Of a stretch of DNA of 64,000 nucleotides, positions 4,775-55,319 are shown piece after piece. The notes beneath the pieces are model-generated. The model had not been told where the DNA came from, did no database searches, and worked only from the letters and a program-made list of their open reading frames with translations. How positions within the stretch are numbered: position 1 is the stretch's first letter; each line of letters begins with the position of its first letter. The stretch comes from Syncephalis fuscata (Eukaryota; Zoopagomycota; Zoopagomycetes; Zoopagales; Piptocephalidaceae), in assembly GCA_025786725.1 (NCBI GenBank), contig JAHLTZ010000006.1, forward strand, positions 310,001 to 374,000. Direction: 5' to 3'. The position numbers and the translations under genes are program-made.

Positions 4775-6510
4775 TGATTAGTGTGTTAGCGGCCGGCTAC
4801 CAAGCAATATAACAATCAATGTTATATTGATGACTTTAAATTTAGTTCACTAACTTACTAACCTGTATTGATAATTACAAATTTATATCATAAATAAAAA
4901 TCACCAAATTGTTTTAGTGTGCTAGCGGCCGGCTACACAACATTACAACATACTAACTTTATATGTATTGTTTTATATTTAGGTACTTGGACACTAACAC
5001 TAACACTTGTTGATTATTATAGATTTTAGATAGCCGAACACCGACACCAACATCAACATCAACACCAACACAACACCGGCACCAACATCGACACCAACAC
5101 CGGCACCAACATCAACACCGGCACCAACACCAACACCAACACCGACATCAACATCAACACCGGCACCAACACCGACACCAACACAACACCGGCACCAACA
5201 CCGACACCAACATCAACACGGGCACCAACACCAACATCGGCACCAACACAACACCGGCACCAACACCGACACCAACATCAACACGGGCACCAACACAACA
5301 CCGGTACCAACACCAACACCGACACCAACACCGACACCAACACCAACATCAACACCAACACCAACACAACACCAACACCGACACCAACATCAACACCAAC
5401 ACCAACATCAACACCAACACCGGCACCAACATCAACACCAACACCGACACCGACATCAACATCAACACCAACACCAACACCGACACCAACACAACACCGG
5501 CACCAACACCGACACCAACATCAACACGGGCACCAACACCAACATCGGCACCAACACCAACACCAACACCAACACAACACCGGCACCAACATCGACACCA
5601 ACACCGGCACCAACATCAACACCAACATCAACACCGGCACCAACACCAACACCAACACCGACATCAACATCAACACCGGCACCAACATCGGCACCAACAC
5701 CAGTACCAACATCAACACCAACAGCAACATCAGCACCAACACCAACATCAACATCAACACCGGCACCAACATCGGCACCAACATAACACCAACACCGACA
5801 CCAACACAACACCGGCACCAACACCGACACCAACATCAACACCAACACCAACACCAACATCGGCACCAACACCAACACCGACATCAACATCAACACCGGC
5901 ACCAACATCGGCACCAACACCAGTACCAACATCAACACCAACAGCAACATCAGCACCAACACCAACATCAACATCAACACCGGCACCAACATCGGCACCA
6001 ACACCAACACCGACATCAACATCAACACCGGCACCAACATCGGCACCAACACCAGTACCAACATCAACACCAACAGCAACATCAGCACCGACACCAACAT
6101 CAACACCAACATCAGCACCAACACCGACATTAACATCAACACCGGCACCAACATAACACCAACACCGACACCAACACAACACCGGCACCAACATCAACAC
6201 CGGCACCAACACAACACCAACACCGACACCAACACAACACCAGCACCAACATCAACACGGGCACCAACATCAACACGGGCACCAACATCGGCGCCAACAC
6301 CAACACTAACATTATTATTGTTATTTAGATTTTAGATAGCCGGCCACGGACACCTGACGTAAGTATTATTATTATTAATAGCCGGCCGCTAGCACACTAA
6401 AACCAAATACAAAATATTAATTCAGGACAATTGTCTACTAACGTACTAACATTGTATTTATTATTTTAGCATTGTAGGTAGCCGGCCGCTAACACACTAA
6501 TCGCCATTTT
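4775..6510. repeat. Nested inverted repeats enclosing a minisatellite
   Basis: Outer arms at about 4775-4803 and 6478-6510 share TAGTGTGTTAGCGGCCGGCT and its reverse complement with about one mismatch. Inner arms at about 4911-4936 and 6380-6404 share TTTAGTGTGCTAGCGGCCGG and its complement. Left order is outer-inner and right order is inner-outer, so the locus is one large imperfect palindrome around the array at 5036-6310. Each arm carries the GC-rich core CGGCCGGCTA in an AT-rich background. This could be a mobile cassette or a recombination product. Confidence 0.75.
5036..6310. repeat. Minisatellite of hexamer-based units (CACCAA/CACCGG/CATCAA)
   Basis: About 1.27 kb consists of 6-bp steps of the type ACCAAC, ACCGAC, ATCAAC, ACCGGC and ATCGGC, arranged in longer shared blocks such as the repeated segments at about 5640-5760, 5860-5990 and 6000-6110. 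Because 6 is a multiple of 3, all frames stay open for long distances; the resulting V/L/P-, G/A/D- and C/W-rich 'proteins' are artefacts. Strong C/G strand asymmetry is evident. Sequences resembling TTTTAGATAGCCG flank both ends (about 5023 and 6332). Confidence 0.9.
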
Positions 6511-7034: not shown

Positions 7035-10000
7035 AAAATAACTATTTTTAATAACATCTAACCTATTGAACATGACGATGGGTGGTGAGTGACATCAATC
7101 ATCAAATACTCATCAGCATAGATTCGTTATCCAGTACGCATATATCCACCATTTACCTATATCACTCTCAATATGCCCACACTACTATATATTATTCTAT
7201 GATATACTAAACATATTCTGTTTATTATATGCTACAATATACTTCGTTCAGTCCACTTATTGCATTATGTGGGTTATAGTTTCAACAGCGCTATTTATAC
7301 TTGTCTATTGTGCATTTATTCTACTTTATATTAACCTATTGTATAGTACCAACACGTTATTTGAAACTGTTATTTATTTAATACTAGTTTGGTTACTAAT
7401 AAATTTAAATTATTACGTTTATTTGTTCATGCATATATGTAACATGCAATCATTTGATAAACAAATTAGTTAATGCAAATTGACTATAGCTTTGATGCTA
7501 GTAGGGCAGATCAATGAATATTTACATTAATAACAAGTTCAAGCGAAATAGGAACATGATGTATTAATAAGTATGCAAATAAAAAAAAGCTAAAGATAAA
7601 ACAGCGTAAACAGCAACAACATAGTACTGTAATGATGATATATGCGTACTAAATAATAAATATACAATAATAAATATTTAAAAAATTAATACTATTTAGC
7701 ATTCAGTTTCATGTTTAATAAAGCAGATATGTAGTTAGTTGCATGAAAAATACTTAGCGCAAATGCTGGCACATAATGCTTAGCACAAATGCTGGCACAT
7801 AATGCTTAGCGCAAATGCTGGCACATAATGCTTAGCGCAAATGCTGGCACATAATGCTTAGCACAAATGCTGGCACATAATGCTTAGCGCAAATGCTGGC
7901 ACATAATGCTTAGCACAAATGCTGGCACATAATGCTTAGCGCAAATGCTGGCACATAATGCTTAGCGCAAATGCTGACACATAATGCTTAGCACAAATGC
8001 TGGCACATAATGCTTAGCGCAAATGCTGGCACATAATGCTTAGCACAAATGCTGGCACATAATGCTTAGCGCAAATGCTGGCACATAATGCTTAGCACAA
8101 ATGCTGGCACATAATGCTTAGCGCAAATGCTGGCACATAATGCTTAGCACAAATGCTGGCACATAATGCTTAGCGCAAATGCTGGCACATAATGCTTAGC
8201 GCAAATGCTGGCACATAATGCTTAGCGCAAATGCTGGCACATAATGCTTAGCGCAAATGCTGGCACATAATGCTTAGCGCAAATGCTGGCACATAATGCT
8301 TAGCGCAAATGCTGGCACATAATGCTTAGCGCAAATGCTGGCACATAATGCTTAGCGCAAATGCTGGCACATAATGCTTAGCGCAAATGCTGGCACATAA
8401 TGCTTAGCGCAAATGCTGGCACATAATGCTTAGCGCAAATGCTGGCACATAATGCTTAGCGCAAATGCTGGCACATAATGCTTAGCGCAAATGCTGGCAC
8501 ATAATGCTTAGCGCAAATGCTGGCACATAATGCTTAGCGCAAATGCTGGCACATAATGCTTAGCGCAAATGCTGGCACATAATGCTTAGCACAAATGCTG
8601 GCACATAATGCTTAGCACAAATGCTGGCACATAATGCTTAGCGCAAATGCTGGCACATAATGCTTAGCGCAAATGCTGGCACATAATGCTTAGCGCAAAT
8701 GCTGACACATAATGCTTAGCGCAAATGCTGGCACATAATGCTTAGCGCAAATGCTGGCACATAATGCTTAGCGCAAATGCTGGCACATAATGCTTAGCGC
8801 AAATGCTGGCACATAATGCTTAGCGCAAATGCTGGCACATAATGCTTAGCGCAAATGCTGGCACATAATGCTTAGCGCAAATGCTGGCACATAATGCTTA
8901 GCGCAAATGCTGGCACATAATGCTTAGCGCAAATGCTGGCACATAATGCTTAGCGCAAATGCTGGCACATAATGCTTAGCGCAAATGCTGCACATAATGC
9001 TTAGCGCAAATGCTGGCACATAATGCTTAGCGCAAATGCTGGCACATAATGCTTAGCGCAAATGCTGGCACATAATGCTTAGCGCAAATGCTGGCACATA
9101 ATGCTTAGCGCAAATGCTGGCACATAATGCTTAGCGCAAATGCTGCACATAATGCTTAGCACAAATGCTGGCACATAATGCTTAGCGCAAATGCTGGCAC
9201 ATAATGCTTAGCGCAAATGCTGGCACATAATGCTTAGCGCAAATGCTGGCACATAATGCTTAGCGCAAATGCTGGCACATAATGCTTAGCGCAAATGCTG
9301 GCACATAATGCTTAGCGCAAATGCTGGCACATAATGCTTAGCGCAAATGCTGGCACATAATGCTTAGCGCAAATGCTGGCACATAATGCTTAGCACAAAT
9401 GCTGGCACATAATGCTTAGCGCAAATGCTGACACATAATGCTTAGCACAAATGCTGGCACATAATGCTTAGCGCAAATGCTGACACATAATGCTTAGCGC
9501 AAATGCTCATTTTTCTCATTACGTTATATGCACTATAACCTCAACACCACTTATCATAATTTTTCCTTATATGTTTATTCTATTATACATCATTTTATAC
9601 TTGCCTAACCTCCCTTTATTTAATGCTATTTTTATTTTTGTTCTAGCTTTATTATTAATAAATTTCAACTAATGTCGGCCATCTGCTCATGCATATATGC
9701 TCAATAACTTTAACATAGCTAATTATCACTCTGTATTGCATATTATTTATAATATATATTGTTTTATTGTTTAATAACTATTGGCTATTTATTGCAACTG
9801 TTCTTTTTGTTTTAACTCTATTATTAATAAATCCCAACGTACTGGGCGCATTGAACTATATATAAAACTCATAGCAAATATAATATGTCTAGTATATCAT
9901 AGAATGGAAATGATATAGGTAAATAGAGTATATGCATATTGATAATAAATCTACGATAATGCGTATTTGATGATTGGTGTCACTCACTACCCATCATCAT

Positions 10001-11402: not shown

Positions 11403-11679
11403 GATATTACATTATCGATATGTTGGTATATGTATGCATCAAGCCACCATGTGAATGTATTGTTATTATTGGTTTACATCGCACATCAATGGTATTGTTT
11501 ATACAACGTAGTATTTCATATATCAGCATAATCCTAGACTTAAATAGTTTATACAATACACACAAATAACTAGCAATATCATCACACTCTAATTTCTGGA
11601 AAATACCTACTACTATCTATTTTATACTAAATATTATATTGTCTATTCTACTTGTTTGCTTTAACAAATCAATATTACC

Positions 11680-12924
11680 ATGAAGCTCTCTATTGCCGTC
11701 GTCTGCACCATTGCCGTGGCTTTTGCAGTCAGTACAGTCATGGTGGATGCTAAGCCTAACCGAGTCCGTCGTGGTATGTTGCAATTACAACAAATATGCA
11801 GATTGGATAGCTACTAACATTATAACAAATCAACCATGGTATTAGCTGGTAAATCGCGATGATGGATCGTTGTTCCAGCACTTACAATATACTGCTATAT
11901 GCATATGAGCGGTCAATAAGTTTTGAAAATATGTGCTTATTGATGTGATAATCAATGATTGTTTGCTATGTATAGTGGTTAGATCAGTGTTATTGGCTAA
12001 AAGTAGGTTCAATGCTCAATAATCAATAAAATGTTGCATTAGAAGTGATAATCTGCTAAATGTGCATTAATAGGAGATATCTTACAGTATAGATGCTTGA
12101 TCATTTAGTTAGTTGCCATTAGATTACTAAATCAACGTTGATAGGCGGTAAGTAGCATTGCATAGTAATTAACTACACGCTAAGCATATGTTATACGCCT
12201 TGTTCGCTTAATAATTTGTATTGATAGTCTGTAAGTGGTATTGTATATTAAATGACTATGCACTAATTGCATGCTATGTGTCATATATGATTAATGCTCG
12301 TATTAATGGTTGGTAAGAGTCATGTATACTAATTAGCCATGTGCTAAATATATATCATGCTTTTTTGTGTTCGATGACTTGTATTAATAGGTCATAAGTA
12401 ATAATTTAAACTAATTAACTATATACTAAATATACCTCACACACTGTATGTGGCCATAACTTGTATTGATAGTGCGTAAGTATGATTTTACATTAATCAG
12501 CTATACATCAAACACATAATGTGCACTGTGTATATTTAATGACCTATATTAATAGAAGTTAAGTCTAGTGTATATTAATTAATTTTATACTATTATATGC
12601 TATGCACTGTATATGTGTAATGAACTGCATTAATAGGATTAAGTGGCAGTATGTAATAGTAATATATGGGCTAATTACATGGTACATGGCATATTATTTA
12701 TGAAAATAGAATAACCGGTGCTCCAAATGCACTAGCATTGGCAGTGTGCTTGAACTGTTAGTTTGATATAATTTAGATATACTGCTGGCAAGAATCAAGA
12801 TCATTTGACAACTAAACTGCCCCGTTCATCTATCTATCAAGTTCCAGCCAATGCTCCGGTTTATTCCATTTTCAATGGATGGATCCATTACATTACCAAC
12901 AAGCTTGCACTTAGTTGCCCTTAG
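11680..12924 (+). CDS. Small secreted protein gene with repetitive intron
   Basis: Exon 1 (11680-11773) encodes an Ala/Val-rich signal peptide (MKLSIAVVCTIAVAFAVS...) followed by KPNRVRR, a possible Kex2-type dibasic cleavage site, and ends at a good donor (G|GTATGT). The last exon (12777-12924) starts after a TTTAG acceptor, encodes about 48 residues including YTAGKNQDHL and PVYSIFNGWIHY, and stops at TAG. I do not recognise the family. The exons are GC-richer than the intervening 1.0 kb, which holds the 82-bp array. A branch-like CTACTAAC (about 11811) and acceptor ATTAG (11845) suggest that a first intron ends early. Direct joining of exon 1 (one spare base) to the last exon is out of frame; intervening exons totalling 1 modulo 3 would be needed. 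Confidence 0.6.
12067..12710 (+). repeat. 82-bp intron-like tandem array
   Basis: Eight degenerate units carry TTRATAG motifs at 12067, 12138, 12221, 12303, 12384, 12466, 12549 and 12630; the last seven are spaced 81-83 bp. In six of those seven, exactly three different bases separate the acceptor-like motif from a donor-like GTAAGT motif: GCG, TCT, TTG, GTC, TGC, AAG. The last unit has two bases. Units at 12138, 12221 and 12466 keep both sites intact; others have lost G of GT or A of AG. The rest of each unit is AT-rich with CTAAT/CTAAC-like sequence, like an intron body. Confidence 0.75.
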
Positions 12925-14352
12925 TCAGCTATGCAAACTTTTGGTAATAAACATATGGCTTTATCTTATTTATATATATATATGATTGTGTTACTATATC
13001 TATGTCTATGCTTTATTTACATTCAATGATTATTTAACATCAACCAAGTAAACACATTAAAATATCTTACATGGATATATTGCATTGTTTATTAGCATAT
13101 ACTGCTACAACTATACAGACATTATCATTTCAACGATAATTATAAATACAGACCTATCGCTGTGCGTTTTAATATTATAATCAACTGTATTTATTTATAT
13201 GCTATAAATCGTATCGAAGCAATTGCCACTATGTAACCAGAGCTGTATTATAGCAATACCAGATGCTAACATCTGCAAACTTATAAAATTGAACAATAAG
13301 ATAAAACTGTAGAAACAAAAAAACTTCTATATAACTAACACAAGACCCATCAATAAGCTATCACTTATTCACAAGTAATATGAATCTTATATAATACAAT
13401 TTAAAATAATATAAAATACTGTTTTATTATTTGTTTTGGTTGTGCATATTGTTGTACAACAAATACTGCAACTTTAAACGTAACAGCGCTTATTAAGCAT
13501 CTTACATTTTGCGCATTTATGGCGTTGAAAAAAATGATATCCAGTTTAAGCAATCAACAATAAAGTTTATACACTTGCAGATTATCCATGTTTTCATTCT
13601 TTGGTTCAATATCACACTTTGAATCTCCTAAAACCATTGGCACTCTTTTCATAATAAAAGAGAAATTAAAACGATACTTAGGCAGCTGTTATCCAGATTT
13701 ATAATTCTATGCTGTTACCCAACTGACTCCGCTATTCAAAACTTAATTACATGTTAGAAAATAAGCTAATTACTTATCGTTTAACATAAACATAAAAAAT
13801 AAATTCATTCTTGCCTTTAAATATGTTGCTTATAACAGTACAGAAATGGTTATGAACGAATGAGTTATATTCGATTCATTTGTTTCAAGTGGATGAATTC
13901 GACTAAATAGGTATATTACAGAGCTTATCACACCACTCATTTCCAACGACGAAATAGTTTTTCGCCATTTTCTTTTAGCGCAAAAATGGCATCAATGACA
14001 TTTTGGATGTAATGTTATTGTTTTTTCAGCAATGTAACTTGTAGTTTATTAATTAATATTATTATTTTTATAACATATTTATAGTAAATGTGACGGGTCA
14101 TCATTTCTATTTAACAAAACGTGGGCATGATATCTGGAATGTCAACAATGTTGTTGTGCTATAATATAAACACCGACAAATAAATGTGTAGCAATCATGA
14201 CACTGCAACTAACTATTTTTAATGCAACAAAACATGACACCAAACCAAGCACCTAATATGGTTTTGGCTTTGAGACATAACGTCATTGGTACCAACGTCC
14301 AACCTTGTTCTTTTCACTGATTCCTTCTAAACAACTGTTTATACCAATTGTT
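12925..14352. other. Gene-free AT-rich spacer
   Basis: No conserved frame or RNA gene was seen. Short TA tracts occur near 12970. The region just left of 14353 should carry the phosphofructokinase promoter, but I can assign no specific element. Confidence 0.5.
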
Positions 14353-49940: not shown

Positions 49941-50662
49941 ATGCTGTCATCTAACATTTCATTGTCAAGTATTAGTAGCTCGTTAGCTACTACTAATGTT
50001 ACAAGCCGCGGCATAGCACCAAGCCAAGTTGCTTATCCAGATTGGGAGAGTTTAGTAAGTCGTTATCGCTATTGTGTTTAATAATACAAGTTGACTAATT
50101 AATTACTATAATAATAGGAACAACAGGTACCACCAGTCAATTGGACCTAAATCAACGACATGCACCACAACTAGTATTACCAGGTCTGTATATCGGTTCG
50201 TTGCAAGTATCCCGTTCGCTACCAGAGCTTCGGGAACGAGGCATTACACATATTATTCATGCTTGTGACTCGGATGGACGGCCCTTACCCTCCTCTCTTA
50301 CTACTATGCACAGCTACAACACTAGTGACAATATTATAAACAATACTGGCATGCCTTTGTTGTCTGATGGAGGCCCAGTAATTGAATTAAAGACTATCGA
50401 CATTTATGATCGAGGCCGTCATTCGTTGGCTGCCTTTTCTGATGCATCACAATTCTGCCGACTAGCATGGGCCAATGGCAGCAATGTGCTTATTTACTGC
50501 TTAACCGGCATTGACGCAAGCCCCGTCATTGCTGTAGCCATTATTATGGAAATGACGGGTATGGCTTGTGTTGATGCTATGCACTGGGTTCAAATGCGTC
50601 GACGATGTACCAATATTCGAGGTGTCTATCTTCGCTTACTAGAGGCAAGTTATTCAATACGT

Positions 50663-50693
<31 letters not shown>

Positions 50694-51047
50694 GGAACAA
50701 CACTAATATATTTATATACAGGAATATGAACCTGTATTATATGCACAACAAACAACAATGAATGAAACAGCATTAGCTATCGATCCATCATTGCATGGGT
50801 CACTACAACAACAGTCATCAAAACGGTAAGTTGTTGTTAATAAGCTTGTATTTTGTTTATATTTGCATTAATGCCATACTGAAGTAGTCTAAGAGACCAT
50901 AATAATGACCATGAAGACGATGAAACAATGGGTCACAGCCATCGAAAGAATCTCTTGCTTGATTCTACTGCTACTGATTCTAATGCAAACTCGGCCTCGC
51001 CTATTACTATTTGTACACTTCCTATTAACTGGTCAGGTCCAAATTAG
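49941..51047 (+). CDS. STYX-like dual-specificity pseudophosphatase, copy 1 (frame-broken)
   Basis: Exons 49941 to about 50055, 50117-50644, 50722-50825 and 50888-51047. Motifs follow STYX: AYPDWE, VNWT, LVLPGLYIGSLQVSRS, LRERGITHIIHACD, then NVLIYCLTGIDASPVIAVAI where the active P-loop HCX5R should be. His is Tyr and the essential Arg is Ala, so catalysis is unlikely; STYX proteins bind phosphoproteins instead (family knowledge). After the fold comes VQMRRRCTNI, LEEYEPVLYAQQ and an acidic/His tail. Intron 3 has a GC donor (GAG|GCAAGT). Compared with the second copy, one base is missing at 50146-50147, creating TGG ACC TAA, which ends the frame. It has its own ATG and signal-less N-terminus. 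Confidence 0.7.
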
Positions 51048-54221: not shown

Positions 54222-54932
54222 AACATTTCATTGTCAAGTATTAGTAGCTCGTTAGCTACTACTAATGTTACAAGCCGCGGCATAGCACCAAGCCAAGTTG
54301 CTTATCCAGATTGGGAGAGTTTAGTAAGTCGTTATCGCTATTGTGTTTAATAATACAAGTTGACTAATTAATTACTATAATAATAGGAACAACAGGTACC
54401 ACCAGTCAATTGGACCTACAATCAACGACATGCACCACAACTAGTATTACCAGGTCTGTATATCGGTTCGTTGCAAGTATCCCGTTCGCTACCAGAGCTT
54501 CGGGAACGAGGCATTACACATATTATTCATGCTTGTGACTCGGATGGACGGCCCTTACCCTCCTCTCTTACTACTATGCACAGCTACAACACTAGTGACA
54601 ATATTATAAACAATACTGGCATGCCTTTGTTGTCTGATGGAGGCCCAGTAATTGAATTAAAGACTATCGACATTTATGATCGAGGCCGTCATTCGTTGGC
54701 TGCCTTTTCTGATGCATCACAATTCTGCCGACTAGCATGGGCCAATGGCAGCAATGTGCTTATTTACTGCTTAACCGGCATTGACGCAAGCCCCGTCATT
54801 GCTGTAGCCATTATTATGGAAATGACGGGTATGGCTTGTGTTGATGCTATGCACTGGGTTCAAATGCGTCGACGATGTACCAATATTCGAGGTGTCTATC
54901 TTCGCTTACTAGAGGCAAGTTATTCAATACGT

Positions 54933-54965
<33 letters not shown>

Positions 54966-55319
54966 GGAACAACACTAATATATTTATATACAGGAATATG
55001 AACCTGTATTATATGCACAACAAACAACAATGAATGAAACAGCATTAACTATCGATCCATCATTGCATGGGTCACTACAACAACAGTCATCAAAACGGTA
55101 AGTTGTTGTTAATAAGCTTGTATTTTGTTTATATTTGCATTAATGCCATACTGAAGTAGTCTAAGGGACCATAATAATGACCATGAAGACGATGAAACAA
55201 TGGGTCACAGCCATCGAAAGAATCTCTTACTTGATTCTACTGCTATTGATTCTAATGCAAACTCGGCCTCGCCTATTACTATTTGTACACTTCCTATTAA
55301 CTGGTCAGGTCCAAATTAG
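54222..55319 (+). pseudogene. STYX-like pseudophosphatase, copy 2 (5'-truncated duplicate)
   Basis: It retains the full frame that copy 1 has lost (VNWTYNQRHAP at the indel site) and the same YCLTGIDAS pseudo-active site, GC-donor intron and C-terminal exons ending at TAG 55317-55319. Its 5' break cuts into exon 1: the in-frame sequence upstream has no ATG and soon meets TAA, and the promoter of copy 1 is not included. Unless it has captured a new start, it should be silent. Some changes from copy 1 alter amino acids (e.g. an Ala/Thr and a Thr/Ile difference). Confidence 0.7.

Follow-up and report, generated by a model that had tools for sequence, protein, structure and literature searches.

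A Syncephalis fuscata gene family with a signal-peptide exon and tandem arrays of probable one-codon exons

Main finding

A large, dispersed family of genes in Syncephalis fuscata was found in which, with high probability, each codon for the mature part of a small secreted peptide has its own exon, the introns being removed and the triplets joined in order. The architecture, the exact 3-nt spacing, the phase and an order-specific absence of stop codons are features of the DNA as read from the assembly. The family was recognised from one member at 11,540–12,951 of the window, by which we mean the whole 64,000-nucleotide stretch analysed.

The window copy

The following features were assigned to the window copy, with positions counted from the first letter of the window.

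11540..11547, forward strand: promoter-like box TTAAATAG, putative function, also upstream of exon 1 in loci L028, L017 and L021
11680..11773, forward strand: exon 1, 94 nt, phase 1, with a signal peptide, a short pro-region ending Arg-Arg and the first base of the next codon
11774..11845, forward strand: intron 1, with donor GTATGT, branch-like TACTAAC at 11812–11818 and acceptor TATTAG
11846..11848, forward strand: 3-nt exon site CTG, followed by GTAAAT, intact on both sides
12067..12709, forward strand: decayed array of 82-bp units, each an intron plus one codon
12074..12076, forward strand: former 3-nt exon site GAG, donor lost (ATATCT)
12145..12147, forward strand: 3-nt exon site GCG, two intact splice sites
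12228..12230, forward strand: 3-nt exon site TCT, two intact splice sites
12310..12312, forward strand: former 3-nt exon site TTG, acceptor AG lost
12391..12393, forward strand: former 3-nt exon site GTC, donor GT lost
12473..12475, forward strand: 3-nt exon site TGC, two intact splice sites
12556..12558, forward strand: former 3-nt exon site AAG, donor GT lost
12637..12639, forward strand: final degenerate unit, donor lost
12710..12951, forward strand: last exon, with a phase-1 TAA at 12712–12714, then the 3' region to AATAAA at 12946–12951 (the acceptor being the most plausible choice)

The preliminary description had reported units of 81–83 bp, and eight TTRATRG motifs indeed start between 12067 and 12630, the seven from 12138 onwards being spaced by 83, 82, 81, 82, 83 and 81 bp; the six differing triplets it had listed (GCG, TCT, TTG, GTC, TGC, AAG) were confirmed. 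The earlier site that it had credited with the same geometry was recovered as TATTAG-CTG-GTAAAT (triplet 11846–11848), and the signal peptide that it had placed at the gene start corresponds to the signal-peptide-like exon at 11680–11773, with donor GTATGT at 11774. Sister-gene models P0007 and P0009 fit the same exon-1 donor, and the 3' region of the window copy is related to the 3' regions of other members.

Five of the nine sites are damaged on one side (donors at 12074, 12391, 12556 and 12637; acceptor at 12310), and four are intact on both sides. A near copy at 515 kb on the same contig, C256, aligns over 1,148 bases with 13 substitutions and 4 gap columns, all of which lie outside the damaged bases, and since the damaged sites are common to both copies, the decay is older than the duplication. 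Judged from these sites, the window copy is a decaying family member, so that the decay raised earlier as a possibility was the right reading for this copy. It is unlikely that the gene still works as a micro-exon gene: exon 1, four of the 3-nt sites and the last exon look intact, and a near copy is kept on the same contig, but five of nine sites are damaged and the damage is identical in the near copy.

Elsewhere in the window, a tandem array of a 26-bp unit (7749–9507, ~68 copies, 98 percent match) and a long AACACC hexamer array within a strongly strand-asymmetric stretch (5037–6311) were seen. Two near-identical ORFs resembling dual-specificity phosphatases (50141–50761 and 54471–55001, named by eye) are apparently a recent duplication. 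For the phosphatase gene in the window, one of 4 database hits comes from Thamnocephalis, which is placed in the Zoopagales like S. fuscata, itself of the Piptocephalidaceae.

Motif geometry across the genome

Genome-wide counts were made on the 28.95-Mb, 299-contig assembly, in which the window lies on contig C256. The exact pattern TTAATAG-NNN-GTAAGT was present at 1,992 sites (911 + 1,081), against 1 for a reversed-pattern control. When the gap was freed to 0–15 bases, 2,078 sites were counted (57 in the control), so that all gaps other than 3 bases account for ~86 sites combined. With TTRATAG as the acceptor motif, 7 sites had a 4-base gap (control 4) and 15 had a 6-base gap (control 3). 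The motif geometry is not due to chance. One form with a 6-nt gap, TTGATAG-CTAGCG-GTAAGT, was seen at six places (C24, C35 twice, C168, C248 and C256), and may mark a subfamily whose exon holds two codons, or a different repeat.

Arrays with at least 5 units were sampled (33 arrays) and modelled using position weight matrices trained on units with the 3-nt motif, with exon lengths of 1–30 nt allowed in the chain models; the genome-wide motif counts (gaps of 0–15, exact 3, 4 and 6) are independent of these matrices. Acceptor and donor models scored separately placed 318 of 320 pairs at a distance of 3 nt. Chain models of 20 genes gave 338/340 exons of 3 nt, and those of the 33 sampled arrays gave 730/736 predicted exons of exactly 3 nt, with chains of up to 47 units. 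Dividing the 1,992 exact sites by the exact fraction in the sampled arrays (0.538) gives a very rough estimate of 3,700 such exons in the genome.

Exon 1, last exon and sister genes

At least 115 matches to the array DNA of the window copy were found in the S. fuscata genome (40 of 328 candidates scored), and a 30-base stretch of exon 1 occurred 205 times with up to 3 mismatches, versus 0 in a control. Among 20 fetched loci, a signal-peptide exon, judged by eye from its hydrophobic leader, lay upstream in 18, or 19 with the frameshifted exon of L021; L013 begins inside the array at a contig end, with exon 1 cut off. Exon 1 was 94 or 97 nt long, and its pro-region usually ended in Arg-Arg. It ended in phase 1 in 19 of the 20 models, all but L011, and in each of 9 additional ones (28/29 donors). 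The exon-1 donor pattern was unmatched in 6 of the 33 arrays (L014, L024, L035, L021, L013 and L044). On reading by eye, L014 and L035 carry the same exon 1 followed by GTACGT, L024 carries a related exon 1 followed by GTAGGT, which the pattern missed, and no exon 1 was seen in the stretch of L044. Frameshifts in the signal-peptide exons of L011 and L021 point to decaying copies in the family besides that in the window.

Nine of ten last exons began with AATAA or ACTAA (exception AACAA), in a list made with a pattern that resembles these starts, and in phase 1 either start gives an immediate TAA. The last-exon pattern was found in 10 of the 27 chains searched (one with a CTCC start), the other 17 having no assigned last exon. 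The automatic last-exon acceptor looks wrong in many of the 20 models, and loci read directly were used instead.

Some sister genes are intronless. Those fetched (L029, L032, L033, L034, L038 and L039) share the signal exon, but in contrast to the array genes their mature part lies in one uninterrupted exon, which is often Cys-rich, and several have the Arg-Arg site. L029 (202–372) has a predicted mature part of ~11 residues with two Cys and three Trp, and L033 and L034 have an identical product over the 80 residues shown. L037 is, by eye, a frameshifted relative, yet it is annotated in GenBank as P0011.

Among GenBank models, P0007 fits L012 and P0009 fits L020; both use the predicted exon 1 and its donor, and both end before the array exons. 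No fit was obtained when P0007 was tried on L015 and P0008 on L031. Gene finders rarely predict 3-nt exons. The mature peptides predicted from the arrays are short and varied, being Pro/Thr-rich in L028, Gly/Ser/Arg-rich in L042, Cys-containing in L046 and helix-like, by eye, in L045. Near-identical copies lie far apart or on other contigs (L010 and L011; the window copy and L009; L012 and L015; L017 and L022), which suggests that segments were duplicated recently or that the assembly includes haplotype copies.

Structure of the units

Introns between adjacent units were 50–104 nt long (33 arrays, gaps >110 nt excluded), and their lengths fell in all three classes modulo 3 (284, 175 and 162; introns of 110 nt or less). 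A further 82 gaps of 124–585 nt between called units were excluded from the intron counts; these are sites of lost or missed units. L030 illustrates a constant 3-nt exon amid introns of differing length. Of 590 introns, 253 had a branch-like motif close to their 3' end; among 590 control stretches, 29 had one.

Conservation was measured on 412 strict units. The splice acceptor and donor were almost invariant, and triplet positions 1 and 3 held 0.07 and 0.05 bits, position 2 holding 0.5 bits with a bias to T. From 25 bases before to 60 bases after the motif start all other positions held at least 0.2 bits; outside that range the alignment drifts, and a few positions are equally low. Because the units were chosen by motif, the splice-site letters are conserved partly by construction, a bias from which the triplet letters are free. 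The second triplet base, which is the third base of the predicted codon, was T in 57 percent, an excess that could fit a wobble base.

Pairs of units within one array were then compared where both 30-nt flanks were at least 95 percent identical (134 pairs, 16 arrays, with 71 of the pairs from L042). Whole triplets were identical in 0.30 of these pairs, versus 0.68–0.99 for seven other positions with equal flank identity; as array means, the values were 0.47 and 0.81–0.94. A comparison with 20 other positions gave the same pattern of differing triplets between nearly identical flanks. Between L042 and L043, the triplet lists differ in steps of entire units, and hence of entire codons. From these comparisons, the triplets resist, through some kind of selection, the homogenisation seen in the introns.

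Hypermutation of the triplets was considered and rejected. Pooled over 14 sister-gene pairs, triplet positions had changed in 30/308 cases versus 232/10,879 for the others, but 25 of the 30 changes come from the pair L042/L043, in which entire units have come or gone and the alignment has probably slipped. With that pair removed, triplet change was 5/233 versus 114/8,402, with no clear excess among the other sister-gene pairs. Since the pooled excess arises mostly from this one pair, hypermutation is not claimed.

The unit structure also bears on whether the arrays might be a minisatellite that gene duplication has spread and whose conserved core merely looks like splice sites. Tandem units of ~82 bp, near-identical units within one array and the joint movement of arrays with the gene family would all suit a minisatellite. 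Such an origin would leave it a coincidence that the gap is 3 nt in 730 of 736 cases while introns vary from 50 to 104 nt, and that triplet bases 1 and 3, the least conserved, are flanked by nearly invariant splice sites; the avoidance of stops, moreover, depends on triplet order (below). We regard a minisatellite as scarcely credible.

Reading frame and stop codons

In phase 1, a codon spans two triplets, taking its first base from the end of one and its other two from the start of the following triplet. This reading was applied to 33 arrays (702 triplets, 614 codons), using only neighbouring units with introns of 110 nt or less; arrays with <5 neighbouring units, including the window copy and L009, were left out of the count. 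Stop counts were as follows.

Exon-1 frame, true neighbours: 0/614
Triplet order shuffled within arrays (4,000 shuffles): mean 19.7, lowest 9
Nonredundant set (26 arrays), exon-1 frame: 0/489, shuffled 17.8
Other split frame: 40/614, expected 48.3
One unit skipped: 14/526, expected 16.6
Two units skipped: 13/457, expected 14.2
Reversed order: 11/614, below most shuffles

Fisher's test of 0/614 gave 0.0009 against the reversed order (11/614) and 1.8e-5 against the skip-one junctions (14/526). Part of the shortage of stops stems from the likeness of units that lie close together, as the reversed order, too, has a low count (11). The absence of stops depends on frame, on order and on adjacency, which is what full inclusion of the triplets in order would predict. 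An earlier, looser count, which was not restricted to neighbouring units, had given 1 stop in 354 versus 11.1. Taken with the 3-nt exon length and the exon-1 phase, the absence of stops at adjacent triplets strongly supports, for the family, the micro-exon gene with one-codon exons that the preliminary description had put forward, and these triplets very probably act as successive exons of one codon each, coding for short secreted peptides.

A phase 0 reading was also considered. None of the 702 triplets is itself a stop, but TAA, TAG or TGA triplets would create overlapping splice sites. The stop-free triplets are thus no evidence for phase 0, a reading that shuffling cannot test; phase 1 is established by exon 1 together with the neighbour test.

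Whole chains read across gaps were open in 17 of 20 models (exceptions L011, L016 and L030), and among nine translated chains five contained stops (L016, L030, L047, L048 and L049). The stops in whole chains are tentatively attributed to missed units and a few misassigned 27–28-nt exons, and some of the genes may be decayed.

The same counts weigh on the other reading offered at the outset, an array that is one non-coding intron of tandem copies, removed recursively or whole, with the triplets as meaningless spacers. Every unit does carry donor and acceptor signals, many with a branch-like one, and the two fitted GenBank models leave the array untranslated, as such an intron would have it. A non-coding intron nonetheless fails to explain why stops are absent only in the exon-1 frame with true neighbours (0/614) and present in skipped, reversed and other-frame readings, nor does it account for the T at the possible wobble position. 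Recursive splicing sites join AG directly to GT and leave a zero exon, with no fixed 3-nt gap, and the S. fuscata units differ from them both in that gap and in their order- and frame-specific avoidance of stops. We consider this explanation very improbable.

Combinatorial alternative splicing, in which each gene would yield many peptide isoforms by including some triplets and skipping others, is improbable to a lesser degree. Almost all exons being 3 nt, the frame would survive skipping, and chains of up to 47 units would offer many combinations; against it, stops were not depleted at skip-one or skip-two junctions. Skipped forms are thus apparently not under selection, and low-level skipping may still occur.

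Proposed mechanism

Under ordered inclusion of one-codon exons, exon 1 would encode the signal peptide and usually an Arg-Arg processing site, ending in phase 1, and would be followed by tandem units that each combine a short GT-AG intron with a 3-nt exon. The introns would be removed successively and the triplets joined in order, each residue being encoded across the junction of two triplets by one base of the first and two of the second, and the last exon would supply a stop within a few codons, as in the cases read. Intron definition is probable, because short introns suit it and 3 nt can hardly hold both splice complexes. With an acceptor and the next donor 3 nt apart, adjacent introns could hardly be engaged together, so that removal would be serial or alternating. 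We infer that the arrays are spliced, that the peptides are secreted and cleaved at Arg-Arg, and that they have a role in mycoparasitism.

Duplication of a unit could add a new residue, and triplets may be kept distinct by diversifying selection or by purifying selection against conversion. It is somewhat probable that coding is modular at the level of single residues, such that gain, loss or exchange of units edits the peptide residue by residue while the introns homogenise.

Comparison with known systems

Introner elements are many near-identical introns in a genome, scattered through unrelated genes. The S. fuscata genome likewise has many near-identical introns, but the exon 1 of one family lies upstream of them in 19 of the 20 loci fetched, L013 being cut by the contig end.

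Micro-exon genes of Schistosoma, as described in the available portion of the source, encode secreted proteins with signal peptides and consist mostly of very short exons, mostly in multiples of three (PMC10526429). The same portion gives exon lengths of 6–81 bp, mostly 15 bp, in its text and 3–81 in its abstract, and introns of 100 to almost 5000 bp (PMC10526429). The S. fuscata genes resemble this class in a coding region made up largely of very short exons (730/736 predicted exons of 3 nt) and in the N-terminal signal peptide seen by eye in exon 1. They differ from Schistosoma in that their predicted exons are nearly all 3 nt, are arranged in tandem arrays with adjacent introns of 50–104 nt, and occur in a fungus. 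Alternative splicing of micro-exons is a further trait of the Schistosoma genes; in the S. fuscata arrays, the stop counts show no selection for skipped forms.

Aphid bicycle genes are, in the available portion of their description, rapidly evolving putative effectors with ~17 exons on average; their internal exons are numerous and small, and nearly all have the same phase, named phase 2 (PMC9168663). In S. fuscata, one phase runs through the arrays: at 28 of 29 donors a single base is left over after exon 1, and internal exons start at codon position 2. The naming of this phase may coincide with phase 2 of the bicycle genes. The lineages are unrelated and the exons differ in size, the available portion on bicycle genes describing no one-codon exons.

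Isolated 3-nt micro-exons can be spliced in Drosophila homothorax, troponin T and NCAM, according to the available portion of a further source (PMC7392893). As described there, these are single 3-nt exons in otherwise ordinary genes, unlike the arrays of tens in S. fuscata.

Significance

Isolated 3-nt exons and micro-exon-rich genes are already known. Among the open-licence matches listed, no description was found of a mature coding region arranged as a tandem array of dozens of one-codon exons, nor of such genes in Syncephalis or elsewhere. Syncephalis is mycoparasitic, as stated in the available portion of the source (PMC10386755).

If transcripts confirm the predicted splicing, the family would stand at the extreme of split-gene structure, would challenge views of how small an exon can be, of exon definition and of ordered splicing, would provide thousands of natural splicing experiments within one genome, and would reveal a repertoire of secreted peptides missed by the two gene models checked. 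Introns may here drive the evolution of peptides residue by residue. If modular coding is true, the arrays would be a natural test of the spliceosome on dozens of consecutive 3-nt exons, and would give this mycoparasite a fast-evolving arsenal.
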